DNA of 48,734 nucleotides from the NCBI GenBank assembly GCA_017625155.1, contig JAGALP010000007.1, positions 1-48,734 on the forward strand. The letters are read 5' to 3'. Made by a program: the position numbers and the translations under genes. Below the pieces are notes generated by a model. That model ran no database searches and was not told the DNA's origin. It saw only the letters and a program-made list of their open reading frames with translations. Each line of letters starts with the position of its first letter. Position 1 is the stretch's first letter. Of the stretch, positions 1-47,440 are shown in pieces. Origin of the DNA: Paludibacteraceae bacterium. GTDB taxonomy: Bacteria > Bacteroidota > Bacteroidia > Bacteroidales > Paludibacteraceae.

Positions 1-546
1 TCTTCTGTTGTAGGTGTTGATATTTCTCATAAAATGCTCGAGGTAGCCAAAGAAAAAACACATTTTCCACAGGTTGAATATAAATGCTGTGCTATAGAAG
101 ATGTGGAATTCCCAGAGGAGAGTTTTGATGTAATATTAAGTTCACTTGCGTTTCACTATGTAGCAGATTATGAGATTTTAGTAAAAAAGATATATAGAAT
201 ACTGAAGTCTGGTGGTAAGCTAGTTTTTACGGTTGAACATCCTGTTTTTACTGCCTATGGAACACAAGACTGGCATTATAACGAAAAGGGAGAAATATTG
301 CATTTTCCGGTGGATAATTATTATTATGAGGGCAAACGGACAGCTGTGTTTTTGGGAGAAAAGGTTACAAAATATCATAGAACACTGACCACATATCTAA
401 ATACACTGCTTTCAAATGGTTTTATAATAAATCAGATTGTGGAGCCGCAGCCGCCGGAAAACATGATGGATATTCCGGGGATGCAGGATGAAATGCGCCG
501 TCCCATGATGCTGATTGTATCGGCGAACAAAAAAGTGGATAGATAG
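1..546 (+). CDS. Class I SAM-dependent methyltransferase, 5'-truncated by window edge
   Basis: The frame is open from base 1, so the gene begins outside the window. The visible part starts in the SAM-binding motif I region (VVGVDISHKMLEVAKE) and continues with the motif II/III stretch around 'FDVILSSLAFHYV' and the post-III 'ILKSGGKLVFTVEHP', the usual order of a Rossmann-fold small-molecule methyltransferase. Substrate cannot be told. The DNA is much AT-richer than the element core and the next gene has a GGAGG ribosome site, so this block looks acquired from a low-GC Gram-positive. The stop is followed after about 38 bases by a broken HD-domain gene on the same strand. Confidence 0.8.
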   Translation, partial: SSVVGVDISHKMLEVAKEKTHFPQVEYKCCAIEDVEFPEESFDVILSSLAFHYVADYEILVKKIYRILKSGGKLVFTVEHPVFTAYGTQDWHYNEKGEILHFPVDNYYYEGKRTAVFLGEKVTKYHRTLTTYLNTLLSNGFIINQIVEPQPPENMMDIPGMQDEMRRPMMLIVSANKKVDR

Positions 547-17567: not shown

Positions 17568-20024
17568 ATGAAAGAGAAATCAGAATTTGAGAAGCGGACG
17601 GCGGAGAAGCAGGTGTCGCTGCTCACTGAGGCACTGACGAGTGCGGTGGATGCCAAGGGACATTGGTTGAATGCAAGCGGCAAACTCTATCCGAAGCTCT
17701 ATCCCAAGGGCTTTTCGGTCAGTCCGTTCAATGCCCTTGTCCTTGCCCTTGACTCCGATGCCAAGGGTTGCAAGAGCAATCTGTTTACGCAGTTCTCCGA
17801 AGCGAAGGCACGGGGTGAGAGCGTGAGGGAGCATGAGAAAGGTGTGCCGTTCCTGTATTACAATTGGAATAAGTACGTCAACCGCAACAATCCCGACGAT
17901 GTCATCACCAAGGAGGCATACGCAGAACTGTCGGAACAGGACAAACAGCAGTACAAGGGAGTGAAAAACCGTGAGATCCGTGTGCTGTTCAATATCGACC
18001 AGACGCTACTGCCTATGGCTAACGAAACAGCCTACACTACGGCATTGAAGAAGGATGGCACGGTGGAGGATAGAGGTTATGGCGACAAGGAGGACAAGCA
18101 GCTGCATGGGTGCGTCAACGGATTCCTTCAGAAGATGAAGGACAACCTCGTGAATGTACGTCAGGACGGCACGGGTGTGGCGCACTACGACACCGAGAAG
18201 GATGTCATCTACCTGCCACGGCAGCGTGACTTCGAGCACTACAATGACTATGTACAGGAGATGATGCGTCAGTTGGTGTCTGCCACCGGTCATCAGCAGC
18301 GGTTGGCACGTGAGGGCATGGTCATGAAGAACGGCAAAGCCCCGTCGGAGGATGCCGTGAAGAAGGAACGACTCATCACTGAGATAGCTTCGGGCGTGAA
18401 GATGCTCGAACTGGGACTGCCTGCCCGTCTGTCAAAGGACAGCCTTAGCATGGTGGACTATTGGACGAGGGAACTGAAGGAAGACCCTTGTCTGATTGAT
18501 GCCATCGAGAGTGAGGTGAACGGTGCGCTGAAGGTGTTGAAGAAAGCCGAACTGGGTGAAAAGGTGGAGTATGCCACCGACCAGCATCAGCGAGAGACGG
18601 CGCAGATACAGGTGCAGTTGCCCAACCACTACTTCGTAGCAGACGAAATCAAGCAGCATCCCAACGAGGAGCAGCGTACTGTGGTCATCGTGCGTGATGA
18701 TGCCAGCAAGACCGCCGATGTGGTGCTGCCACAGGGTGCATCGTTGGAGGTGAACAACGAGATCAAGGGCATGAACAAGCAACGCTTCACCAATGCCTTG
18801 CAGAAAGAGGGTTATGACAACGTGCGTTTCTACAATCCCGACGGAGCCTTGGGCTTCCGTCCCGACGACAGTTATTTCGCCGACAAGAAAATCACGGTAT
18901 CAAGACTGCGCAACTGGTCTATCGAAGACCTATCCTCGTTGGATGCTTCTGAGGCCGTAACCCACAGCCGTGACATCGGTTTCGACAATGTGCAGTTGGT
19001 AAAGGATGACAAGGAGCGGTGGGCATTGTACATCAAGCCCGAAGGTAAGGAGGGCTTTGCCGTCTATCCCGACAAAGGAGACCTCAATCATTTCTTCACC
19101 ACCTTGAAGCAGTCGATGGACAACATCGAGCGTGTGCGTGAGGAACTGGCACAGAAGTATTATGCTATGGCAGAGGCGAAACCCGACCTGAAGGTGGACA
19201 TCTTCGGAGGTAATGAGCAGGAGGTTGATTTGAACCGCATCCAGCGTGTGGCAGTATTCCGTGCCAAATCGGGCGAATGCCTGTGTGCAGCCACTATTGA
19301 CGGCAAGAAGTTGCAGCCGAGAAGTGTCAGTCCGTCACAATGGCAACGATTGTGGGTGGCTCCTGACAGGGATTCCTACAAGCAGAACCTTGCCGCCTCG
19401 CTGTTTGCTGATGTATTGCAGAAAGACAACAATGTCGAGCAAAGTACACAAGAGAAGCAGGAAGAAGCGACGGAGGTGAAGCAAGCGGAGACGGCAATTG
19501 TCGATAAGCATGATGAACAGAAGGAAGTGGTACTTAAGGAAGATAAAAGCTCTGAACAAAGGGAAGAGAAGAAACAAGAGGAAAAGAAAGAAGAAAAGAA
19601 GGATGAAAAGGCTGTCAAGGCTGCTGTCTCTCCCCTTGTCCAACAATATCTTGACTTGAAGAAGAAGCATCCTGATGCCATTCTTTTGTTTCGCTGCGGT
19701 GACTTCTATGAGACCTACAAGGATGATGCGGTGAAGGCATCCAAAATATTGGGTATTACGCTGACAAAGAGCAATGGGCGCAAGGATGATGAAGGCAAGC
19801 CGTTGGCAATGGCAGGATTCCCATATCATGCCCTCGACACCTATCTGCCGAAGCTCATTCGTGCTGGTGAACGGGTGGCCATCTGTGACCAGTTGGAAAT
19901 GCCGAAGCAGACAACATCATCGAAGCGTGGAATTACGGAGATGGTGTCACCTGGAAAAGAGACAGGAAAGCAGATGGCACAGGAAAGTCAAGAAACAGAA
20001 CAACACACCAGTCTAAGGAGATAG
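17568..20024 (+). CDS. ArdC-like protein with lost zincin site, fused to MutS domain I
   Basis: 818 residues in three parts. Residues 1-330 follow the ArdC layout: a DUF1738-like N-terminus ('[20 protein letters not shown]', '[17 protein letters not shown]') and a zincin-like domain at '[20 protein letters not shown]', where the expected HExxH is replaced by '[12 protein letters not shown]', so it should be inactive. A middle part (about 370-640) resembles DUF3945-type repeats. After a Glu/Lys-rich linker, residues about 685-790 are a clear MutS N-terminal domain: '[20 protein letters not shown]', '[10 protein letters not shown]', '[17 protein letters not shown]', '[11 protein letters not shown]', including the mismatch-contact 'FYE'-like triad. 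I infer binding of structured or mismatched transferred DNA. Confidence 0.8.
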
Positions 20025-28397: not shown

Positions 28398-29849
28398 TTA
28401 TCGTTTCTTCCTTTTGCCGGAAGAGGGGCGCATCATGCGTGCAGCTTTCATCATGCAACGGCGTGCCCAAGCGCGTTCATCCTCGTCATCGTCACGTCCC
28501 CATTTGAGGTCGGACGAACTGCCGCCACCGCCATGACCTTCGGCAAAGGTGGTGGCATCATCGACGTAGCCGAGGAATAGAAGCGTGGCACAGTACATCA
28601 CCTCCGTTCCATTCTCCGCAAAGGCCTGAAGCAGGGAACCGTCAAACACGTCCTTGCCCTCATTGGAAAGCCGTGCCACACGTTCGGAGAACTCGCTGAC
28701 CATGTTTTCGAGAAGGGCATTTCTGAGAACGGTGTCCGCACCTTGTCGGATAGTATCGGAATATCTGTGTGCCTCCTGCCGCAACTCCTCCGTGCGCTCC
28801 TTCATGGCGGTCATCTCCTCACGCAGGGCATCGAGCTTGCGGTCAGCCTCTGAGAGCTTCTCCTGCTTGTCGTCCAGTTTCGACTGGATAGCGGACAGTT
28901 CCTGCTCCAGCTCTTGGACTTGCTGACGGAGAGCATCAGGATTGTCGTGACCTGCAAGAATCTGCCGATGCAATTCAGCAAGTGCCGCCTCCTTCTCAGC
29001 CTTCTCCTGCAAGAGGTTGTTGACCATTGAGGTGAGTCCTTTTACTCTCCGCTCTGCCAGACGGATGTCCGATTGGAGCGAGGCGAGTGTCCGCTGATGG
29101 GTGGCGACGGACTGCTCAATGGTGGTGCACTGTTCTGACAGCTGGCGGCGGTATTCTTCGGTGGTGCGGTGGCGTGCTCCCGTCTCTGAGACGGAAGTTC
29201 CGCGCTCCATGCCCCAACGCTTGTTGACATCGGCAAATTCGCTGTGCAGGGCTTTCATCCTGGCAGAAAACTCGTACTTGTCCTTTCCGGCGAATATCTG
29301 TTTGTATGCAAACTTGCCGTCCTTGATTGGCAAGAGGGTGCAGTGAACGTGCGGATTGGTTTCGTCCAAGTGTAAGATGAAAGCGACGATGTTCTCCTCA
29401 CCGTATTTGTCCGCAACAAAGCGGTAAACATCCTTTGCCCATTCCTCAATGTCCTTGCATCGGGTTAGATGCGAATTGTCCGCTCCGTGAGTGAGATTCA
29501 CCTTCTGGTCACCGAATGCCAATTCTGTCATACGTTCTCGTGAGCCTCCGAAGATGAAATTGACCACTGTGCGGAAGCGTGGCTCTGCCAGTCCCTCGTT
29601 GGGGTCTTTGATTCCACGGCTCCGCAGGATGTCTGCCATGCGCTCCGGGATGCTTCGGCTCTTGTCTATAGGACAAACCTTGCCGCCCCGAACCTCGAAG
29701 TTGAGCCGCTCACGGCTGCGGTCGTAGTTGCCTGTTGATTCAGCGGATCCCCAACCCTTTTCCGTCCAACGGCGTTGGTGCTCGTTGCTCTGTGCTGTGG
29801 TGATTCCCTTAGATGGTCGGAAATCCATAACCTGTTTTGGTGTTGCCAT
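28398..29849 (-). CDS. MobV/Pre-family relaxase
   Basis: 483 residues. The relaxase domain (1-215) shows 'MDFRPSKGITTAQSNEHQRR' near the start and the diagnostic metal-binding motif in 'VAFILHLDETNPHVHCTLLP' (HxDExxPHxH), as in Mob/Pre plasmid relaxases. The remainder is a long coiled coil (about 225-360, Glu/Gln/Arg-rich heptads) and a Gly/Ser-rich 'GHGGGGSSS' tail segment with a basic end. It nicks at oriT and pilots single-stranded DNA. A matching cruciform lies about 70 bases upstream at 29916-29977. Confidence 0.9.
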   Translation of the reverse strand: MATPKQVMDFRPSKGITTAQSNEHQRRWTEKGWGSAESTGNYDRSRERLNFEVRGGKVCPIDKSRSIPERMADILRSRGIKDPNEGLAEPRFRTVVNFIFGGSRERMTELAFGDQKVNLTHGADNSHLTRCKDIEEWAKDVYRFVADKYGEENIVAFILHLDETNPHVHCTLLPIKDGKFAYKQIFAGKDKYEFSARMKALHSEFADVNKRWGMERGTSVSETGARHRTTEEYRRQLSEQCTTIEQSVATHQRTLASLQSDIRLAERRVKGLTSMVNNLLQEKAEKEAALAELHRQILAGHDNPDALRQQVQELEQELSAIQSKLDDKQEKLSEADRKLDALREEMTAMKERTEELRQEAHRYSDTIRQGADTVLRNALLENMVSEFSERVARLSNEGKDVFDGSLLQAFAENGTEVMYCATLLFLGYVDDATTFAEGHGGGGSSSDLKWGRDDDEDERAWARRCMMKAARMMRPSSGKRKKR

Positions 29850-38613: not shown

Positions 38614-39105
38614 TTATACACTATTATGAAGATTCACTATGTCCAATCCCTGCCTCTTGGCTTCTCTGACGGTGTAGAACGTGCCGCCCTTGGGATTGCC
38701 ATCGAAGTAGGCTATGAGACGTGAACTGCGGTTGACCATATAGTCGTTGCGCCTCAGAAGGCAGCCATTGTAGTATTGCTCGCTCAATACGACCACGTCA
38801 TCCACGATGCGCAGGATGGCATCATACTTGGCTTGCTCTTCCTTGCTCCACCGGTCAGACTGACCACGGAACGGCACAACGGCTATCACCTGCAAGTCCT
38901 TCAACTCGCATTGCAACGAAAGGGCGGCTTCTGCCGCCAGCAGGTCAAATCCCATTGCCATGCCACAATAGAAATACCGGTAGCCGTCGGCATACGCCTT
39001 GGCTATCTCCGATTTGAGACATTGCTTCAACTCCCTCCGCTTGGCGAAAGGTACGCTGCGGTGTCCGCTGAAGCATACGGACACTGCCTTGTCGTACTTT
39101 GTCAT
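38614..39105 (-). CDS. SLOG-superfamily protein (DUF1273/YpsA-like)
   Basis: 163 residues. Begins with 'AVSVCFSGHRSVPF', the DUF1273 'GHR' signature, followed by the Rossmann-like 'YFYCGMAMGFDLLAAEAALS' with a GMAxGxD nucleotide-binding turn, 'LQVIAVVPFRGQSDRWSKEE', and 'RNDYMVNRSSRLIAYFDGNP' with 'GGTFYTVREAKRQG'. SLOG proteins bind nucleotide-derived ligands; DUF1273 members are common on Bacteroidales elements. Three bases after the phosphoribosyltransferase gene, so the pair is probably functionally linked. Confidence 0.85.
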   Translation of the reverse strand: MTKYDKAVSVCFSGHRSVPFAKRRELKQCLKSEIAKAYADGYRYFYCGMAMGFDLLAAEAALSLQCELKDLQVIAVVPFRGQSDRWSKEEQAKYDAILRIVDDVVVLSEQYYNGCLLRRNDYMVNRSSRLIAYFDGNPKGGTFYTVREAKRQGLDIVNLHNSV

Positions 39106-39108
39106 ACT

Positions 39109-39675
39109 TTACCTTACTTTATAATGTGTGCGTGCGAGGAACATACCGCCAATAACACATGCCCCGAGCCTTTCGAGTTGGTTGGCATACTTGGCATAGC
39201 TGAGACCCTTGGTTATCACATCGTCAAAGACCAACACCATTTTGTTGTCGAAGAACGGCTCATCAAACTCAACGACATTCGCCTTGCGGACTTCATCCTC
39301 GTTCTTGCGGTTATCGTGGATGGTCTTACGCTCTCCGCATACCCTCACGTGCTCGTAGCCGTTTTCCGCTCCTGTCAATTCACACACCCTGTGGCAGAAA
39401 GCCTTGTAGCGGAGTTCGTTGCTCTCGCTTGTGGATGCTGGAACGGGGGCGAAGACGATGTTCACGCAACCCTTGCCGTAGAGTGTCAGCATATTCTCTG
39501 CGGTGCGCTGCGCCACTTCCTCGTAGGCTCTTCCGTCCTTGAAGTCAAACACTAATTGTCTGTCGGCAATCTCCTTCTCACCCACATTGCGGATGCGTGC
39601 GGGATAGTATTTGCAGAACCAAGTCTGAGGCTTGTCTAACTGCTTTTGGATTTGATAGTCATTCTTGTGTGCCAT
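39109..39675 (-). CDS. Phosphoribosyltransferase-like protein
   Basis: 188 residues from the ATG at 39675. The PRPP-binding loop is 'KMVLVFDDVITKGLSYAKYA' (hydrophobic-D-D-x-x-x-x-G), as in ComF and type I PRTases; an upstream 'VNIVFAPVPASTSESNELRY' forms the conserved P-x-P strand and loop. No N-terminal zinc finger of ComFC type. Substrate unknown. A leader box GGGAAGAAAAA lies just before the start. The longer reading frame upstream of 39675 runs into the non-coding control region and is rejected. Confidence 0.75.
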   Translation of the reverse strand: MAHKNDYQIQKQLDKPQTWFCKYYPARIRNVGEKEIADRQLVFDFKDGRAYEEVAQRTAENMLTLYGKGCVNIVFAPVPASTSESNELRYKAFCHRVCELTGAENGYEHVRVCGERKTIHDNRKNEDEVRKANVVEFDEPFFDNKMVLVFDDVITKGLSYAKYANQLERLGACVIGGMFLARTHYKVR

Positions 39676-40086
39676 TGCTCTTATGTTTTTTCTTCCCTTA
39701 TTTCGGAGGCTTTTCCTGCCTGCCCAAGGGATATTTTTTGCTTTCCAAGAGTGATGGCGATCAAAAAGCCAAATCGGGAGCGAAAAATACGCTCTGCACG
39801 CAGAGGAAGATTTTTCGGTCAAATGCAATGGACGATTTGGTGTTTGAACAATCGCCAGCATTACCTTTGCAAAACAATATCCGCAGCGGCAAGGCAGGCG
39901 AAAAGAAATCTGTTATGTAAAAGAGGAAACGGGCGGGATGGCGTGGGGCGAAGCTGTATATGGGGAAGGACGATAGTTGATATGAGGGAAAAAGAGAAAA
40001 TCTTGTAATAGGGAACGACATTGCCTTTTATCAGCATGGAGACAGTCCTACAAGCAGAGAAAACTATTGCCCTAAAAATGAGTTGG
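39676..40086 (+). ncRNA. Non-coding control region, module 2, with a short plus-strand RNA candidate
   Basis: No gene. Left part 39687-39735 (leader box TCTTCCC...GGGATATTTT, shared with 43.2 kb) and stem-loop ATAC-GCTCTGC-AC-GCAGAG-GAAGATT (39786-39812) precede a plus-strand -7 box TACCTTTG at 39862-39869 with TTTG 22 bases upstream. The candidate RNA from about 39876 contains AAAGAGG and the box GGCGTGGGGCGAAGCTGTAT (about 39942-39961), nearly identical to the 3' box of the large RNA units at 43.7 and 44.1 kb. Confidence 0.45.
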
Positions 40087-40226: not shown

Positions 40227-40505
40227 TCATGTGTCATGCCGCTTTAGGTATTCTGTCATTGCCTCATTGACAATATCACGCAAGGACATCCCTTTCTTGA
40301 TGGCGAGGTACTTCATCCTCGTGTGGATGCTCTTGTTGATAAGGAAATTGCAATGCACCGGCACTTCGGTAGTCTCAGAAACAGACACAGGTGGTGCTGG
40401 TGTAGTTTCTGTGACTATCTGCTCCTTACTCGGCTTCTTTGTGGAAGAAAGGAGTCCGTTGAGACCGCCTTTCATTCCCTCTTTCAACATACTGCTCTTG
40501 CTCAT
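40227..40505 (-). CDS. ParA partner, small ribbon-helix-helix-like DNA-binding protein
   Basis: 92 residues: a basic, flexible N-terminus with a Thr/Pro/Val-rich linker, and a C-terminal 'CNFLINKSIHTRMKYLAIKK' plus 'GMSLRDIVNEAMTEYLKRH', the pattern of a ribbon-helix-helix or DUF3408-type dimer. Starts 7 bases after the ParA stop. In ParA systems such small proteins bind the centromere and stimulate the ATPase. The TAGTA clusters on both sides are the likely binding sites. Confidence 0.75.
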   Translation of the reverse strand: MSKSSMLKEGMKGGLNGLLSSTKKPSKEQIVTETTPAPPVSVSETTEVPVHCNFLINKSIHTRMKYLAIKKGMSLRDIVNEAMTEYLKRHDT

Positions 40506-40512
40506 GGCTATG

Positions 40513-41268
40513 CTATTTTAAGTTTAACACTTCTTTTGCCAAAGACATATAATCACTGGCACCATTGGATTTGGGATTATACTCAAAGATAGTCTTGCCG
40601 TTGATGGGTGCTTCTGCCAAAGCCACATTATCACGGATGACGGTCTTGAAAACCTTCTCGTGAAAACTGTCATTGACGATTTCCCTCACGCTTCGGTTCA
40701 ACGTCTTGCGGCGATCGAACTGGGTGATGACGATGCCGCCCACTTTAAGGTTGGAGTTGAGCCGCTCCTGAACGATGCGGATGATGTCCATCAACTTTGC
40801 CATACCTCTCATGGCAAGGTATTGCGCTTGAACAGGGATGATGATGTAGTCGGCTGCGGTGAGGGCATTCAAGGTCAGCAAGCCCAATGACGGTGGACAG
40901 TCGATGATGATGTAGTCGAAATGCTCTTTGGCGATGGCTTTGGTGATAAGTCCCTTCAAGATAAGCTCCCGTCCCGGCTCGCTGATAAGCTCTAACTCAG
41001 CCGCAGACAGGTCAAGGCATGAGGGTGAGACGGTGATGCCGTTGTGCAACTTGACCAACGGCAAGGTGTACTGTCCACACATTGCGCCATAGACTGTCTG
41101 TTCTTCCTCGATGGACAATCCCAAGGCTTCCGTGAGGTTGGCTTGTCCATCCATGTCAATAGCCAAGACGTTCTTCTTACTCAGTTGCAGAGCTGCCGCA
41201 AGGCTTACTGCGGTCGTACTTTTCCCTACACCACCCTTGTGATTTAATACTGCAATTATCTGTGTCAT
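40513..41268 (-). CDS. parA: ParA-family partition ATPase
   Basis: 251 residues. Deviant Walker A 'LNHKGGVGKSTTAVSLAAAL', the A' motif 'VLAIDMDGQANLTEALGL', and Walker B 'FDYIIIDCPPSLGLLTLNAL' define a Soj/ParA ATPase without an N-terminal HTH (type Ib size). It segregates low-copy plasmids or excised elements. The gene is between repeat clusters 2 and 3 and upstream of its small partner, with cluster 3 in the promoter position, which suggests autoregulation through the centromere. Confidence 0.92.
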   Translation of the reverse strand: MTQIIAVLNHKGGVGKSTTAVSLAAALQLSKKNVLAIDMDGQANLTEALGLSIEEEQTVYGAMCGQYTLPLVKLHNGITVSPSCLDLSAAELELISEPGRELILKGLITKAIAKEHFDYIIIDCPPSLGLLTLNALTAADYIIIPVQAQYLAMRGMAKLMDIIRIVQERLNSNLKVGGIVITQFDRRKTLNRSVREIVNDSFHEKVFKTVIRDNVALAEAPINGKTIFEYNPKSNGASDYMSLAKEVLNLK

Positions 41269-41387: not shown

Positions 41388-41813
41388 TCAGAAGGGAAGG
41401 TCTTCGCTCTTGTCCTGCGGTGCATCGGCTGGCGGTACGGGAGCCTCGCCCTCTGCCTTGGCTGCCTTGCGTGCCTTTGTTGCAGGTGTGTCGGTTGCAT
41501 CCTTCTTCCCTGCATTGACAAAGGCGATGGAGTCAGCTATGATGCTATGCTGTATGTGGTTCTCTCCGTTGCGGTCTGTCCAAATGGAAGAAGTCAGTGT
41601 GCCTTCCACAAGCACCATACGACCCTTGGTGAGGTATTCAGCCAAACGGATATGGTTCTCCTTGCTGCTCTTCACCCTTACCCAAGTGGTGATTTGCTTG
41701 CCCTTACTGTAGTCGTCCACTGCGATGTCAACAGCCATGAATGTTCCGTGTGTACCTGTGATGACGCGGCAATCCTTTGCTCCGATGCGTCCGATAGTGT
41801 GAGTGTAAATCAT
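41388..41813 (-). CDS. ssb: Single-stranded DNA-binding protein
   Basis: 141 residues. N-terminal OB fold with 'GRIGAKDCRVITGTHGTFMA', 'ITTWVRVKSSKENHIRLAEY', 'LTKGRMVLVEGTLTSSIWTD', then an Ala/Pro-rich linker and the acidic tip ending DLPF, the canonical SSB partner-binding tail. It coats single-stranded DNA during transfer or replication and can recruit host factors. Located just upstream of parA with repeat cluster 3 between. Confidence 0.9.
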   Translation of the reverse strand: MIYTHTIGRIGAKDCRVITGTHGTFMAVDIAVDDYSKGKQITTWVRVKSSKENHIRLAEYLTKGRMVLVEGTLTSSIWTDRNGENHIQHSIIADSIAFVNAGKKDATDTPATKARKAAKAEGEAPVPPADAPQDKSEDLPF

Positions 41814-41830
41814 AATGTGAAAATGTTATA

Positions 41831-41867
41831 GTGGCAAGTTGGTTAGACTTGCCGTTACCTTGTTATT
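41831..41867 (-). repeat. 37-bp direct repeat with hairpin, copy 1
   Basis: GTGGCAAGTTGGTTAGACTT... differs from 42236-42272 at one base in 37. The GGCAAG/CTTGCC arms fold into a hairpin. The last bases include the stop codon of the excisionase-like gene. Confidence 0.7.
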
Positions 41868-42223
41868 TAAATGACTTTTCTTGTTGATTGAACATAAGCT
41901 ATTGCTTCATTCATAATTTCTGCTCGTGACCTACTCTTGTTATCTTGCATCCACTCATCAATTTCAGATTTGAGGAACATGATACGTTTCCCCTTCTTAT
42001 GGAATGGTATTTGTTTATTGCTTGTCCAACAATAGATTGTGTGTTCAACTGGATGGGTAGGGAGATACTCACTCAATTCGGAAACACTAAGCCATTCCAA
42101 TCCCTTATCGGGCTGAATTTGAGTCATTAGTGTGGAAAACTTTTCTTCTAAAATCTCCAGCTTGTTTATTACTAATGACAATGCTGATGGCAAGTCATTA
42201 AAACTCAATATTTGCTTTTCCAT
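41867..42223 (-). CDS. Excisionase-like helix-turn-helix protein
   Basis: 118 residues: a coiled-coil N-terminus ('LSLVINKLEILEEKFSTLMT'), then 'LEWLSVSELSEYLPTHPVEH' and 'TIYCWTSNKQIPFHKKGKRI', 'MFLKSEIDEWMQDN', the MerR-like pattern of excisionase/DUF3853-type proteins. Such proteins bend DNA or regulate excision in Bacteroidales elements. It is AT-richer than its neighbours and sits exactly between two copies of a 37-bp repeat, as if inserted as a cassette. Confidence 0.75.
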   Translation of the reverse strand: MEKQILSFNDLPSALSLVINKLEILEEKFSTLMTQIQPDKGLEWLSVSELSEYLPTHPVEHTIYCWTSNKQIPFHKKGKRIMFLKSEIDEWMQDNKSRSRAEIMNEAIAYVQSTRKVI

Positions 42224-42235
42224 ATCAATATATGT

Positions 42236-42272
42236 GTGGCAAGTTGGTTAGGCTTGCCGTTACCTTGTTATT
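42236..42272 (-). repeat. 37-bp direct repeat with hairpin, copy 2
   Basis: Second copy of the repeat at 41831-41867 (36 of 37 identical). Its right end includes the stop codon of the 42271 gene, so it lies at the same place relative to a stop codon as copy 1. Confidence 0.7.
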
Positions 42273-42501
42273 AATATCCTTTCTTCGTCTGCCTTGTATT
42301 GGCGACAAAAGACTTGTTGCTGCCTGTGAGACTGATAGAGCCGCAATTAACAAACTCTCCGTCGGAATAGACTCTGTACTTCTGTCCGCTTACCTCATGC
42401 TTCTGTTTGATGCGCTCTCGCATCCACTTCTTGGCTGCGGTCAATGAGCAAAAGGTCTCGCTCTCCTTGGTCGTCTCGTCATATACGATGCACTGGGTCA
42501 T
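42271..42501 (-). CDS. Small hypothetical protein
   Basis: 76 residues from the ATG at 42501, which has GGAG seven bases upstream and lies 8 bases after the upstream stop. Pattern 'CIVYDETTKESETFCSLTAA', 'KKWMRERIKQKHEVSGQKYR', 'VYSDGEFVNCGSISLTGSNK'. No family recognised. An alternative ATG at 42522 would overlap the upstream gene. Confidence 0.5.
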   Translation of the reverse strand: MTQCIVYDETTKESETFCSLTAAKKWMRERIKQKHEVSGQKYRVYSDGEFVNCGSISLTGSNKSFVANTRQTKKGY

Positions 42502-42509
42502 ACATGCTC

Positions 42510-43064
42510 CTACTTCATCCATGCACCTATACTCGACGTGACATAGTCCAACTGACCGCCAAATATGTCGCTTGGCTCTATGTCGTATTGTCCATCCCTC
42601 ACTTCCTTGTCCTCTCCAAGAAGCGACAAGTTTCCGTCGGCATCCAAACGTGCTGCGTCTATGACGATGTCACGAGGCTCGTCAAAGAGATAACCTGCCA
42701 CGATGGGCTGCTCTCCCTCGAAATGCACCTCAAAGCCTCCGTCCACCTCCGTGCCGTACTTGCGAAGAGCCGCTTTCAGCTCGTCCTGCTCCCGGTGCTG
42801 CAATGCCTGGAGTTGTCCGTGGATAGTGAGGTCTTGCAGTTCTGCCTCTCGTTTGGTGTGGGTTGCCTCGCCGGTCTTGCAGTCGATGTCATACTTGTGG
42901 TAAACCACTGGGATATGGTCTGCCGATGTGACAAGCCATGTGATGTTGTTCACTGAGAAGCCCTGTCTGGTGAGGAACTCCTCGATGTCTGAGCCGAGAA
43001 GGTGGTCGGCTACGTCAAGATACTCGATGCGTGCGTCAGCATCATGCAGGATGATAATCTTCAT
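42510..43064 (-). CDS. Uncharacterised acidic protein
   Basis: 184 residues from the ATG at 43064 (MKIIILHDADARIEYLDVAD); a start at 43106 would add 14 residues. It is acidic, with 'HLLGSDIEEFLTRQGFSVNN' and 'DIFGGQLDYVTSSIGAW'. Similar proteins are carried by Bacteroidales conjugative elements, but I cannot name the family. It is the first gene leftward of the long non-coding RNA-like region, whose minus-strand side would be its leader. Confidence 0.5.
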   Translation of the reverse strand: MKIIILHDADARIEYLDVADHLLGSDIEEFLTRQGFSVNNITWLVTSADHIPVVYHKYDIDCKTGEATHTKREAELQDLTIHGQLQALQHREQDELKAALRKYGTEVDGGFEVHFEGEQPIVAGYLFDEPRDIVIDAARLDADGNLSLLGEDKEVRDGQYDIEPSDIFGGQLDYVTSSIGAWMK

Positions 43065-43376
43065 TGCCTTTCTATTTTTAGTGATACAAATAAGTTTGTC
43101 GCCCATGTCGCTGGACTTGTTTAACTACGTTGAAGAAACTTACGCTCAGCATAGTGAATAAATTCCCTCTGCGTTCGCTTAACCGTTTCTTTCTCTTCCC
43201 TCCTTTCGAGACCTTTCAGCCTGTGGAGGGATATTTTCTGCTCCCACAAGCCGCAAGAAAAGACATAAAGACAAATTATGTGTGAAGAATACTCTTTTCC
43301 GAGGAAAAGGAAGATTGTTCACAGTCACAAGACCTCAAGCAGAATTTGACGATTGTCTCAGACGCGGCTAACTTTG
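43065..43376. promoter_or_regulatory. Non-coding control region, module 3, with plus-strand promoter
   Basis: The leader box (43187-43230: TCTTCCCTCCTTTCGAGACC, then GGGATATTTTCTGCT) closely matches 39.7 kb. A stem-loop AATACTCTTTTCCGAGGAAA-AGGAAGATT follows at 43288-43316. The plus-strand promoter is nearly ideal: TTTG at 43345-43348, 20-base spacing, TAACTTTG at 43369-43376. It points into the RNA array. Confidence 0.6.
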
Positions 43377-43380
43377 CAGG

Positions 43381-44545
43381 AAATATGCCTACCACTGCGC
43401 TGATTGGAAGAAGATTATTGATATTGGCTGCAAGAGGAATGATGTGTTATATATAAAGAGGTAAGAAGAAAGATTGAAACAGTAAGGGTGGGCAGTGAAG
43501 TGTTTGCAGGTCTGCTGTACCGACATAAAGCGAGTGTGTTGGCTGACCGGGATGCAAGTCATCAAAGCTTCAGCCTTGATAGCTTGTAGCACGGACAGAC
43601 AATTCTCTCGCGTCGGTACTTCGGCATACTGTCAGCTTTGGCTAATAGCAACGTGTTGCCATCAGCCAAGGATGTCTGTATGACGACAGACCATGTAACG
43701 CTTCGCAAAGGCGTGGGGCAAAGCAGTATAATTTAGAAGTAGATAGTAACGTATATCAGGCAAGAAGAGACAGTTGCGCAACGGACAAATCGGGCACTCC
43801 TGTCAGCATGACAAATGTGCCTTGTCCTTGCCGCAGGACACTGAGGCAGATTGGACGTAGCAGACATGTCTGCCACATTCAATATGCCTGAGTGGACAAG
43901 AACTGCCTCTTGTATAGCAGAAGAGAAATTGTAAAACAGTTGATTAGTGGTAAAGGTGGTATGGGTGGGCAGAATGGCATTACACGGACATTGCCGAAGC
44001 CCGATAATGGGACAGCCAGACAGCAATAAAGGCAGTTATCAGAAGTGTCAGTTTCTGATAGTGACATTGTTGGCTGCCTGTCACATGGGATTCGTGCGGT
44101 GTCCGTACAGTAATGCCGTTCTGAAGGTGTGGGGCGAAGCGATACAACGCACTTGGACGAAACCACCGCTTATAACAGAAAATATTTTGCAGTCAAAGAG
44201 AAGAAGAATAGTAAAGCAGGTGTGGGTGGGTAGTGAAGCTGTCGCAAGATTGACGGTCTGAATATCAAGGCGAGTGGATAGCCAGTAAAGGACACAATTA
44301 TCAGAAGCCTCGGCTTCGGCATCTTGTGGCATAGATGGCAGTCCTCTCGCGTTCAGACCTTGGCATACTGTCTTTCTTGGCTAATAGCGACTTTGTCGCC
44401 ATCAGCCGGGAATATCTGTATGCCAACCATCTTGGTGACGTTTCGCAAATGGTGAGGGACGAAGTGGTTAGAATAAAGGAAGACGGCGTTGCCGTTATGG
44501 TTAATAAATGCACATGGTTGTTATTAGAGAAGATTATCACACGCT
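43381..44545 (+). ncRNA. Array of three related structured-RNA-like units
   Basis: No convincing protein gene in about 1.16 kb downstream of the strong plus promoter. Unit A (about 43481-43731), B (about 43955-44150) and C (about 44211-44470) share an entry box (GGGTGGGCAGTGAAG-like), stem-loops in the same order and a 3' box (A GGCGTGGGGCAAAGC, B GGTGTGGGGCGAAGC, C a weaker match). A and C align over about 120 bases and show compensatory changes in one stem: GCAAC/GTTGC in A (43648-43659) and GCGAC/GTCGC in C (44387-44399), both closed by GGCT/AGCC. I do not recognise a named RNA family. Confidence 0.6.
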
Positions 44546-44569: not shown

Positions 44570-44597
44570 GCAAAACAAAAGCGACCCGAAGGTCGCC
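44570..44597 (-). terminator. Terminator of the 44.6-kb ssb gene
   Basis: On the minus strand GCGACC-TTCG-GGTCGC is followed by TTTTGTTTT, a classic rho-independent structure with a UUCG tetraloop, 20 bases past the SSB stop. Confidence 0.9.
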
Positions 44598-44616: not shown

Positions 44617-45003
44617 CTATTTCTTGCCTTTCTTGGTTGCTGGCTTGGCCGGCTCTTCCGCAGGAGTCTCCTCCTTGTCGGGACACTCGTAGAACTTGGT
44701 TGCAACCATGATGATTCTGGAGTGCTTCACGCCATCCTTGTCTGTCCACTCCTCTGGCTTGAAGAAACCCTCGACGGTGAGCAACGTGCCCTTGGTGAGC
44801 TTGTCGAATGATTCGGTGTGCTCGTTCTTGCGCCATGCCTCCATATTCATGAAAGCCGATACGCGGTTGGTTTCCTCGCCGTTCTTCTCCTGACGGCCTA
44901 CTGCCAATGAGAAGCGTGCTACGCTGGCGTTTGCGAACTGACGGATTTCTGCATCCTTACCTACGAAACCTGAAACTGTGAAGTTGTTCTCGATCTTTTT
45001 CAT
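44617..45003 (-). CDS. ssb: Second single-stranded DNA-binding protein, no acidic DLPF tip
   Basis: 128 residues. OB fold with 'NNFTVSGFVGKDAEIRQFAN', 'VARFSLAVGRQEKNGEETNR', 'FDKLTKGTLLTVEGFFKPEE', 'WTDKDGVKHSRIIMVATKFY'. The tail is Lys/Pro/Glu-rich and ends KKGKK, so the partner-binding acidic tip is absent. It may act as a pure coating protein. Isolated between two long non-coding regions with its own terminator. Confidence 0.85.
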   Translation of the reverse strand: MKKIENNFTVSGFVGKDAEIRQFANASVARFSLAVGRQEKNGEETNRVSAFMNMEAWRKNEHTESFDKLTKGTLLTVEGFFKPEEWTDKDGVKHSRIIMVATKFYECPDKEETPAEEPAKPATKKGKK

Positions 45004-45793
45004 TTTGAATTGAATTTAAAAGTGAAACTTAATTTTTACATGCATTCAAAAGCAGGGATGTGGCACCATGTGGGAAGCACCATGAAAATCGTTCGCAATA
45101 CTCTTTTTGTCGTTGGCGGTAAGGGAGAAAAAGGAAGATTACGCACTATTTTATTGGTCACAGCGATAGCGGCCACACAAGAAGGAGGAAGTCCTTCGCA
45201 GCATCACGCTACCTTTGCATGGTAAAAATAAGTGGCTTTCAAATAGCTCAATTCAGAAAAAGACGGGGCCAAACAATGGAACAAAGGTTGTAAGCAAGGA
45301 GGCAATCCGTATGCAACAGACAGGGGCACTGCTATGGCTGTATGCCTGGAGAAACGAAGCGGGAAATCCGACCTTACAGCTGTATCATCAGAAGAGTGAG
45401 GAGCATGAACACTGATGCACGATGAACGACAAGCCTAAGGGTCAGCTTAGCAATAGAGGCATCAAGCCAAAAGAGGACAGACATCAGAGGATTGGCGATA
45501 GCACTGTCATCATGCTAAGACCAAGTTCTGTGTCCGACAAGGAAGAGTCGCAAAAGACAGACGAGTAAAACCAAAAGGCGAAATGACCATTCCTATAACA
45601 AGGTACAGAGACGCTTAAAACGGCGAAGGGACTTTGGCGACGTATCGCTATACAGGTGTCGAAGCATCGCTTCTATAACAGGACTGGAGCAAGTGAGCAA
45701 ACCGCACAACTTGCTCCCAAGGTATTTCAGTTACAACAGCCATAACCTCATTGGAGGATTGTCCTAAAAGAGTTTTTGCAGTCAAAGGAAGAA
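45004..45793 (+). ncRNA. Non-coding region, module 4, with plus-strand RNA candidate
   Basis: No gene I trust in 790 bases. The stem-loop module recurs (AATACTCTTTTT ... GAGAAAAAGGAAGATT, 45097-45140). A -7 box TACCTTTG stands at 45210-45217. The downstream 570 bases contain several short hairpins, AGGGTCAGCTTA (also at about 47064) and, near the end, the conserved TTTGCAGTCAAAG (45775-45787). A short reading frame at 45215-45415 has no start context and looks accidental. Confidence 0.4.
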
Positions 45794-45825
45794 AGAGTCT
45801 GCAAGCCACATAGCCAACAGACTCT
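45794..45825. terminator. Stem-loop AGAGTCTG/CAGACTCT
   Basis: A perfect 8-bp stem with a 16-base loop lies between the RNA-like region and the convergent minus-strand gene at 45833; probably ends one or both transcripts. Confidence 0.6.
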
Positions 45826-46030: not shown

Positions 46031-46615
46031 TTAGCCGAATGTGATTGGATTGATGCAGAAATTCGTGTCCTCAGCCTCATACTCGTATTCATTGATGAAG
46101 TCAATCATCTTCTGTTCGCTTCTTCCGTCCTGTGAGACACCAGTCTTCTCACACCACAACTTGATAGCATCACCAAAGGTGGAGTAAGCACCCTCACAAT
46201 CCTCAAAGAGTTCTCCGTATGCAGTGACGTAGCACTCTTCGGGGAAGAAGTCGTTCTCATCGTGCGTATAGAAGATGTCGCAACCTGGCTCAACCTCTCG
46301 CCAACTGATTGAAAGTTCATCGCCAAGTGCCTTGTTCACCTCCTCAAAGAACAAGTCGCATGAAGACCAAGCACTTTCGGTGTCAAAGGACAAGAGGGCA
46401 TAATCGTCTTCCACGTTCTCCTCATACTCTGCCCAATAGATGTGTCCTCTCACCGAGATGCCTTTCTTCTCGTAGTCAATGCCATAGTGTTCTGCCAAGA
46501 GATACAGATACACATTATTACTGTTCACCTCCAACTCTTGGAGTGTGTTCCAAAGGTCTGCCACGGCTTTGCGTGAGCCTGTCACCTTGTACTGAGTGTC
46601 GCAAATGTTAGCCAT
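46031..46615 (-). CDS. Api92/YubB-like protein of unknown function
   Basis: 194 residues, very acidic. It starts 'MANICDTQYKVTGSRKAVAD', a pattern of the YubB/Api92 ferredoxin-like proteins found on plasmids and phages; then 'VYLYLLAEHYGIDYEKKGIS', 'FDTESAWSSCDLFFEEVNKA' and 'ISWREVEPGCDIFYTHDEND'. Function unknown. The leader carries the GGGAAGAAAA box (about 20 bases before the start) shared with genes at 25139 and 39675. Confidence 0.6.
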   Translation of the reverse strand: MANICDTQYKVTGSRKAVADLWNTLQELEVNSNNVYLYLLAEHYGIDYEKKGISVRGHIYWAEYEENVEDDYALLSFDTESAWSSCDLFFEEVNKALGDELSISWREVEPGCDIFYTHDENDFFPEECYVTAYGELFEDCEGAYSTFGDAIKLWCEKTGVSQDGRSEQKMIDFINEYEYEAEDTNFCINPITFG

Positions 46616-47440
46616 AAGATAAAATTTTTATTTTCTTCCCTTATGTAGAACCAACTACCATCGGGATTGATTAAAGAATTATGTTGCCCCAAAAGGTGTT
46701 ATGGCTCATCAATGCAAGGTTTTGCCGTCAAATACTACCTCTGCCACAATCAGAGCGTGGAGATTTCACGGACAAACCACAGGCACCGACCTTGCAGGAT
46801 GAACGCCATGACAGGTACCTTTGCAACACAATTCTTATCAAAGCCCGATGGGGTGGTACATGGCAGACTGCATGGTACAGCAGTGTGAAGTGACGTTATA
46901 GGTGGAGATAAGGCTATAAGAGGTTTTTGCAGTCAAAGGAGAAAAGAGTCCACAAAGTGCAGTATCTACAGGACAAAAACACTTTAGTTTACCTTGGTTA
47001 GCTCTTATATATATGCTAACCTAAAGTAAACTGTATATATGTCCGTCTAAAACCCGAAAACCGTACGGGTCAGCTTACGTCAGAAACAGAAGTATAGAAC
47101 CATAGAAGTGGTTCAAGAAGTCTTTCTTCCTTTGACTGCAAAATATTATCTTTGCACGAATCATAATTGCCCTGTAGGATTTAATATAATTTAACACTCT
47201 TTGTTGAATGCAAGGAAGAACAGCTTCAATATGCTGAATATCAGTAGTATAACATTGTGTTAACCCTTAATCTGTAGAAAAGGATGTTATCATACAAAGT
47301 AATGTCCATTTGTACTTTTTCTATATGGTTTTATACTTACATTTGCATATCATTTGTATCTTGATAACAGTAACTAACTGATTATCAATATACTTTATAT
47401 TTGAGGAAGTGAAGTAATAGCAAAACAATAAGCGAAATAG
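46616..47440. ncRNA. Long non-coding region, module 5
   Basis: No gene in about 820 bases. It contains the leader box, a stem-loop module AAATACTACCTCTGC...CAGAGCGTGGAGATT (46730-46759), a -7 box TACCTTTG (46816-46823) with CTTG 21 bases upstream, TTTGCAGTCAAAG at 46926-46938 and its inverse at 47130-47142, an AT-rich dyad at 46986-47032, and another -7 box TATCTTTG at 47147-47154. The last 280 bases are AT-rich and featureless. Confidence 0.45.
46986..47032. repeat. AT-centred dyad AGTTTAC..GGTTAGC / GCTAACC..GTAAACT
   Basis: Two inverted arms (46986-47002 and 47015-47032) each made of two heptamers, around a TCTTATATATAT centre. This could be a replication or recombination site; no protein gene is adjacent. 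Confidence 0.5.

Follow-up and report, generated by a model that had tools for sequence, protein, structure and literature searches.

The complementary-strand origin of M13 and the single-strand origin ssoA both carry a hairpin that host RNA polymerase recognises in single-stranded DNA (ssDNA). GOLLD and ROOL are large structured noncoding RNAs of bacteria. Promoters that work on the single strand entering a new cell are familiar mainly from plasmids of enterobacteria. For conjugation, the Frpo and ssi sequences of F and ColIb-P9 are described as ssDNA promoters in the accessible text of two studies (PMC9849209, PMC11541004). The second of these, a study of leading regions, looked, according to its accessible text, for sequences already known as Frpo/ssi and for -35/-10 elements of E. 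coli; no word beginning with 'Bacteroid' occurs in its main text. Our literature search found nothing on ssDNA promoters or Frpo in Bacteroidota in the accessible portions of the works it covered (PMC7314908 and PMC9024699 among them); in those of PMC9024699, Frpo and 'Bacteroid' occur together but are unrelated.

The DNA analysed here (the window) is a stretch of 48,734 nucleotides from a Paludibacteraceae bacterium, in which a stretch of 1165 bases (43381-44545) had been predicted to encode three structured RNA-like units behind a near-perfect promoter. With moderate confidence, we read the surrounding region as part of the leading region of a Bacteroidales conjugative element with a broad host range, in which four hairpins, H1-H4, would serve as ssDNA promoters and the units as protective folded DNA of the transferred strand. 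The folds, their covariation, the G-boxes, and the orientation of these features relative to genes, relaxase and TraJ were observed directly.

Plasmid-labelled records of Bacteroides finegoldii and of Phocaeicola massiliensis both contain the 1165-base stretch with 100% identity. The neighbouring gene (42510-43064, minus strand) is of leading type, with no assigned function and no Pfam match, and lies 5' of H2 on the plus strand. Of 17 genome loci, 10 had a copy with 100% identity, the hosts being Bacteroides, Phocaeicola, Parabacteroides, Prevotella and Leyella, among others; one further locus had 96% identity and six had 47-48%. Identical copies across these genera show that the DNA belongs to a promiscuous mobile element. 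A DNA search of 178 genomes of the host's own genus returned only the copy already at hand, and the neighbour protein, searched against 393 genomes, found itself and one 48% relative, on whose contig there was no match to the H hairpins below E 0.5. A tblastn search in plasmids gave the two known records only.

Between 38.6 and about 47 kb, every annotated gene lies on the minus strand, save for four short plus-strand CDSs that lie on folds, and the block resembles the leading region of a conjugative element. Pfam searches identified an SSB gene at 44617-45003 (PF00436, E 2e-16), a second SSB gene at 41388-41813, and ParA (40513-41268) followed by ParG (40227-40505). The gene at 39109-39675 is phosphoribosyltransferase-like, with a match below the Pfam cut-off, and is followed by a SLOG gene (38614-39105). 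The four plus-strand CDSs, taken from the annotation of NZ_OY725908.1 (39669-39920, 43947-44261, 45040-45225 and 46681-46893), overlie H1, unit B, H3 and H4, respectively, and are probably spurious, folds having been mistaken for genes. The second of them, a 'hypothetical protein', is the only CDS annotated within the units, and spans the hairpin of unit B.

Bacteroidota promoters follow the consensus -33 TTTG / -7 TAnnTTTG. The near-perfect promoter of the original prediction is indeed a near-consensus element, at 43369, and is one of four plus-strand TAnnTTTG elements (39862, 43369, 45210 and 46816). Each of these belongs to a long imperfect hairpin, in whose 3' arm it sits; the hairpin lies immediately upstream of a minus-strand gene, and the element points away from that gene. 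All four hairpins are on the plus strand and are candidate ssDNA promoters. H1 (39726-39885), with TACCTTTG at 39862, is upstream of 39109-39675; H2 (43225-43392), with the -7 element TAACTTTG at 43369, would serve the gene block of 42510-43064; H3 (45027-45233), the weakest of the four, has TACCTTTG at 45210 and is upstream of the SSB gene at 44617-45003; and H4 (46671-46839), with TACCTTTG at 46816, is upstream of 46031-46615. Four of four window hairpins are placed upstream of leading genes that are read from the hairpin strand.

When folded as ssDNA and compared with shuffles, H1, H2, H3 and H4 gave z values of -3.1, -3.5, -2.3 and -9.6, respectively, the folding of H3 being equalled by 6 of 200 shuffles. 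Changes on both sides of a pair were present at 11 of 34 pairs in the H2 family (7 sequences) and at 13 of 64 in the H4 family (4 sequences), with 0 of 500 shuffles reaching the result in either family. One relative of H2, in L036, folded no better than its shuffles (z +0.5; 137 of 200 as good). A consensus scan of 38.6-47.4 kb gave three promoters on the plus strand and none on the minus strand. In the predicted folds, the promoter boxes are rebuilt within the stem and the start region is paired; H3 has no -33 match.

In the mechanism that we propose, the plus strand would enter the recipient first, and H1-H4 would fold on it after entry. Folding would place the host-type -33 element in duplex and the -7 TAnnTTTG within or next to a small internal loop close to the stem base. 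The RNA polymerase of the recipient would then start on ssDNA with the 5' arm as template, and read the minus-strand leading genes, the SSBs and others. Since these promoters point the wrong way in double-stranded DNA, expression would be transient, much as has been reported for Frpo of F. Units A, B and C, lying 3' of H2, would most likely shield this stretch from SSB or from second-strand synthesis for as long as early transcription needs. That a promoter in the 3' arm with its template in the 5' arm would read toward the minus-strand gene follows the logic of Frpo, as we interpret the accessible text of PMC9849209. We infer the transcription of ssDNA, the identity of the transferred strand and the role of the units.

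As far as the accessible accounts of Frpo/ssi go, the H hairpins are like them in being stem-loops of a leading region, in having promoter boxes rebuilt in the fold, in lying upstream of ssb and other leading genes, and in occurring more than once per element. Unlike Frpo, they use the Bacteroidota -33 TTTG / -7 TAnnTTTG rather than -35/-10, and carry an apex of their own, AATACTCTT...AAGGAAGATT, sometimes followed by same-strand G-boxes. The likeness to Frpo is one of geometry, H1-H4 being known here from sequence and predicted folds. The M13 origin and ssoA would be of the same type, hairpins recognised in ssDNA by host RNA polymerase, whereas the H hairpins are present in several copies upstream of mobile-element genes.

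The apex led to relatives in genomes and in IMG/VR contigs. Its pattern matched in 7 of 393 genomes, and the reversed control in 2. Apex matches in viral contigs that had no proper -7 element were dropped as chance; 17 of the 38 new stretches (L038-L075) had the element, and one of these 17, L073, itself looks like chance. Among 26 hairpins examined, not all of them independent, the base after the -7 element pairs upstream in 25. At least five of the seven bases of TAnnTTT are paired in 14 of the 26 folds, and at most two in 10. With the element mostly paired in those 14, a pre-melted -7 element is far from universal; in the predicted folds it lies sometimes within the internal loop and sometimes next to it. 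At the apex-picked sites, 25 in number with near-identical copies included, a complement of 9-10 out of 11 bases was present in the 5' arm in 19; among other TAnnTT[TC]G sites, 13 of 471 had one. In 13 of 19 hairpins, TAnnTTTG is preceded by a TTG or TTTG that ends 17-22 nt before it; in 5 of the 19, H3 included, a TTG is missing from the range of 15-24 nt.

Model R1 was built from 19 hairpins, H1-H4 among them; its matches to these four are therefore by construction, and beyond them it gave no match in the window below E 0.8. At E<=0.01, R1 matched 75 of the 393 genomes of the window's order, three of these genomes having been trained on, and 55 of 206 genera. A hairpin model with that reach would make zygotic gene expression testable in a dominant gut group. 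In 21 of 22 pairs of neighbours no more than 50 kb apart, both hairpins were on the same strand, three of these pairs being those of the window.

The flanks were surveyed in 40 stretches with 47 R1 matches, 43 of which had the -7 element. The gene on the left was on the opposite strand at 37 of 47, and that on the right was also mostly opposite ('minus', 30 of 46), so that gene direction alone tells little. Ten of the 28 left-gene proteins were subjected to Pfam searches. Seven of these were SSB, ArdC, two RadC, an N6-methylase, PcfK and DUF6943; of the remaining three, one had a J-domain match below the cut-off and two had no match. The hairpins point to adjoining early-entry genes (SSB, ArdC, RadC, methylase).

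In RP4, the transferred strand can be read from the orientation of the relaxase. For the hairpins of 16 chosen genomes, a relaxase was present within 60 kb of 27 of 56, and none was found for the other 29. In 25 of these 27 cases, the hairpin and the nearest relaxase gene were on opposite strands; 21 of the 27 hairpins were on the side predicted to lead in transfer, and 6 on the other. Where TraJ was within 60 kb, the hairpins were on the TraJ strand in 15 of 16. When relaxase orientation is read as in RP4, the hairpins would fall on the transferred strand. The window has a Mob_Pre relaxase gene on the minus strand (28398-29849), the orientation of which predicts, by analogy, that the plus strand is transferred; H1-H4 would then be part of the transferred strand in the leading region. 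Hairpins of this kind could mark the transferred strand and the leading region from sequence.

The three diverged tandem units that had been predicted were confirmed, a model trained on A- and C-type units finding B at E 2e-9. On the plus strand, unit A (43484-43726) consists of the G-box GGGTGGGCAG, a three-way-junction fold and the 3' box GGCGTGGGGCAAAGC; unit B (43961-44142) of a G-box, a long hairpin and the 3' box GGTGTGGGGCGAAGC; and unit C (44222-44467) of a G-box, a three-way junction and the 3' box GGTGAGGGACGAAG. A fourth fold, AB, is located between A and B (43754-43915, plus strand) and forms a three-way junction with a TAGC...GCCA stem; it has no G-boxes. A and C have direct repeats of 56 and 53 nt, with 73% and 75% identity, and a 14-nt 5' box is common to A and B. 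The finer details described earlier were present in the sequence, namely, the stem that changes from GCAAC/GTTGC to GCGAC/GTCGC between A and C with AATA/CATC fixed, the TAAAGG...TTATCAGAAG common to B and C, and the 3' box recurring near 39.94 kb, at 39940. Compared with dinucleotide shuffles, folding gave z values of -4.2 for A, -5.9 for B and -3.3 for C (equalled by 1 of 200 shuffles for C), and -4.9 for AB, for which 43736-43950 was folded.

Unit covariation was assayed by aligning A and C with their two copies in locus L030 and a remote relative in L012. The alignment had 70 pairs, 89.3% of the cells pairing, and two-sided compensatory changes were present in 19 of the 70. The covariation score and the number of pairs were reached by 0 of 500 shuffles, the structure having been taken from the same alignment that was scored, which favours structure; the count of further pair types was no higher than in shuffles (258 of 500). 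A covariance model of the same five sequences, R2, scored the untrained unit B at 37.6 bits (E 2.4e-9), and also found untrained units in L035 (E 6e-12), L034 (6e-7) and L037 (2e-4). The repeats, the folding, the covariation and the recovery of untrained B and L035 argue that the units are more than chance.

The unit model is narrow, R2 matching just 1 of the 393 genomes of the order. This narrowness would agree with the units being by-products of palindromic-repeat insertion or expansion with no function of their own, as would the tandem duplications of relative L035, with its five box-bracketed copies. The compensatory changes on both sides of pairs speak against such an origin, as do the conserved boxes and orientation, and we consider it very improbable.

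A search of Rfam gave no match at the gathering score in the window, ruling out a known Rfam family for units A-C at that score; at E<=10, there were only two matches, both at noise level. In size, structure and mobile-element setting the units are like GOLLD and ROOL; unlike these, they are without an Rfam match, form tandem folds bracketed by boxes, and are known here from DNA alone. The earlier view of an element-encoded family of RNAs stands as far as being element-encoded, structured, covarying, multi-copy and outside Rfam is concerned; as to their being RNA, the plus-strand letters fit RNA or transferred-strand DNA alike. Read as folded DNA of the transferred strand, the structured units would gain a testable place in conjugation. 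Among the relatives, the array of L035 (4200-5520, minus strand) has five 3' boxes and an apparent recent duplication of two units. L012 has a lone A/C-type unit (323-537, plus strand) on a contig with integrase-like and capsule-like ORFs (by eye) and no match to the H hairpins below E 0.7.

The plus strand of A folded at -101 kcal/mol compared to -90 for the minus strand, and that of B at -87 compared to -68. A, B and C all folded better on the plus strand, with RNA and DNA parameters alike; for AB and L012, both strands folded about equally under RNA parameters. The stems had 52 G.T cells and 13 A.C cells, counted on plus-derived structures. The better plus-strand folding and the excess of G.T suggest that the plus strand is probably the selected form. 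A minus-strand RNA, in which stem 3 would be continuous with G.U pairs, was also considered, but the superior plus-strand folding of A, B and C led us to drop it.

Any RNA made from the promoter at 43369 would have the sense of the plus strand, which is also the strand predicted to be transferred. The units could therefore belong to a plus-strand regulatory, decoy or anti-defence RNA of about 1.1 kb with A, AB, B and C, for which the TTTG/TAACTTTG promoter would work in double-stranded DNA and the hairpin would only regulate. The near-consensus promoter with its 20-nt spacing, the better folding of A, B and C on the plus strand and the unit covariation are all in keeping with such an RNA. Relative L036 moreover ends its unit array with a hairpin plus a T-run (by eye), and a terminator might be seen in the TGGCG...TTTTT that 11 of 12 aligned right flanks from other families share. 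Against it, plus-strand terminators right of hairpins were not enriched (34 observed, where a crude background predicts about 32), and at the hairpin of 44581-44596 the long T-run is on the minus strand, so placed that it would terminate the SSB gene. Such an RNA also leaves unexplained the pairing below the -7 element with the gene-proximal 5' arm, and the strand linked to the relaxase. We regard it as rather unlikely, and lean toward units that act as folded transferred-strand DNA rather than as RNA.

A, B and C are each flanked by GGGTGGG and a GG(C/T)G(T/A)GGG box, 156-220 nt apart. Near H1, both boxes adjoin with no insert between them, forming the uninterrupted G-box GGGCGGGATGGCGTGGGGCGAAGC (39931-39954, plus strand) 3' of that hairpin. 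In some relatives of other hairpin families, the box consists of four G-tracts, about 50-160 nt right of the hairpin. GGG[TC]GGG was present on the same strand, within 300 nt to the right, for 14 of 52 non-redundant hairpins compared with 2 of 411 control promoters (Fisher p 9e-13), and full quadruplex motifs for 6 of 52 compared with 0 of 411. The strict G-box is missing at 38 of 52 hairpins, which counts against the explanation that we favour. No four-run G-quadruplex motif (loops up to 12 nt) occurred in 38.6-47.4 kb, and a four-run quadruplex in units A-C was rejected. The flanking boxes and the same-strand enrichment make the units look like G-boxes that were opened by folded inserts and reiterated; judged by their sequence, A, B and C look like diverged copies of the same-strand G-box that trails some hairpins, split by folds of about 155-220 nt. 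A literature search for G-quadruplexes in the leading regions of conjugation found nothing relevant among the works it covered.

Some hairpins are located on contigs that appear to come from dsDNA phages, for which no ssDNA stage is known (in L042, there is a terminase-like ORF by eye), and others between convergent genes near integrase-like ORFs (L066, L080-L082). A role in conjugation alone would not account for these cases, which hint at a broader class of ssDNA sites for RNA polymerase. Both settings would be covered if the hairpins were single-strand origins, at which RNA polymerase primes complementary-strand synthesis and the G-boxes stop or process the primer RNA. The hairpin-with-promoter architecture is the same for such origins, and the strict G-box, GGG[TC]GGG, occurred on the opposite strand at 0 of 52 hairpins, as they would have it. 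Priming, however, would need fewer copies than the four that lie within 7 kb, each immediately upstream of a leading gene, and we consider origins improbable.

Returning to ssDNA promoters, we tentatively extend the reading to mobile elements of Bacteroidota in general, which may have a previously unrecognised ssDNA-promoter class of their own, partly paired with a same-strand G-quadruplex or an array of G-box plus hairpin. Such an entry module would keep a stretch of the incoming strand single-stranded and transcribe anti-defence and SSB genes before the second strand is made, A-C being the expanded array of one module. We hold this wider proposal to be possible but somewhat doubtful.

In the aligned right flanks of other families, the TGGCG...TTTTT mentioned above is on the same strand, 85-381 nt from the hairpin, and CTGCGAG-like pieces were present in 9 of 12. 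Loci with this right-flank module are L127, L129, L131, L132, L141, L120, L156, L150, L059, L128 and L142. Rfam searches of 15 right-flank loci (L132 and L142 left out) gave tRNAs only.

Within the window, the motif TTTTGCAGTCAAAG is repeated right of hairpins, at 44183-44205, 45774-45795 and 46925-46946 on the plus strand and at 47124-47151 on the minus strand; its complement adjoins a plus-strand TATCTTTGC site near 47150. A 42-nt direct repeat, 93% identical, flanks an HTH gene (41831-41872 and 42236-42277). On the plus strand, a single ORF at 17568-20024 combines an ArdC N-terminal domain, a zincin-like metallopeptidase and MutS domain I.
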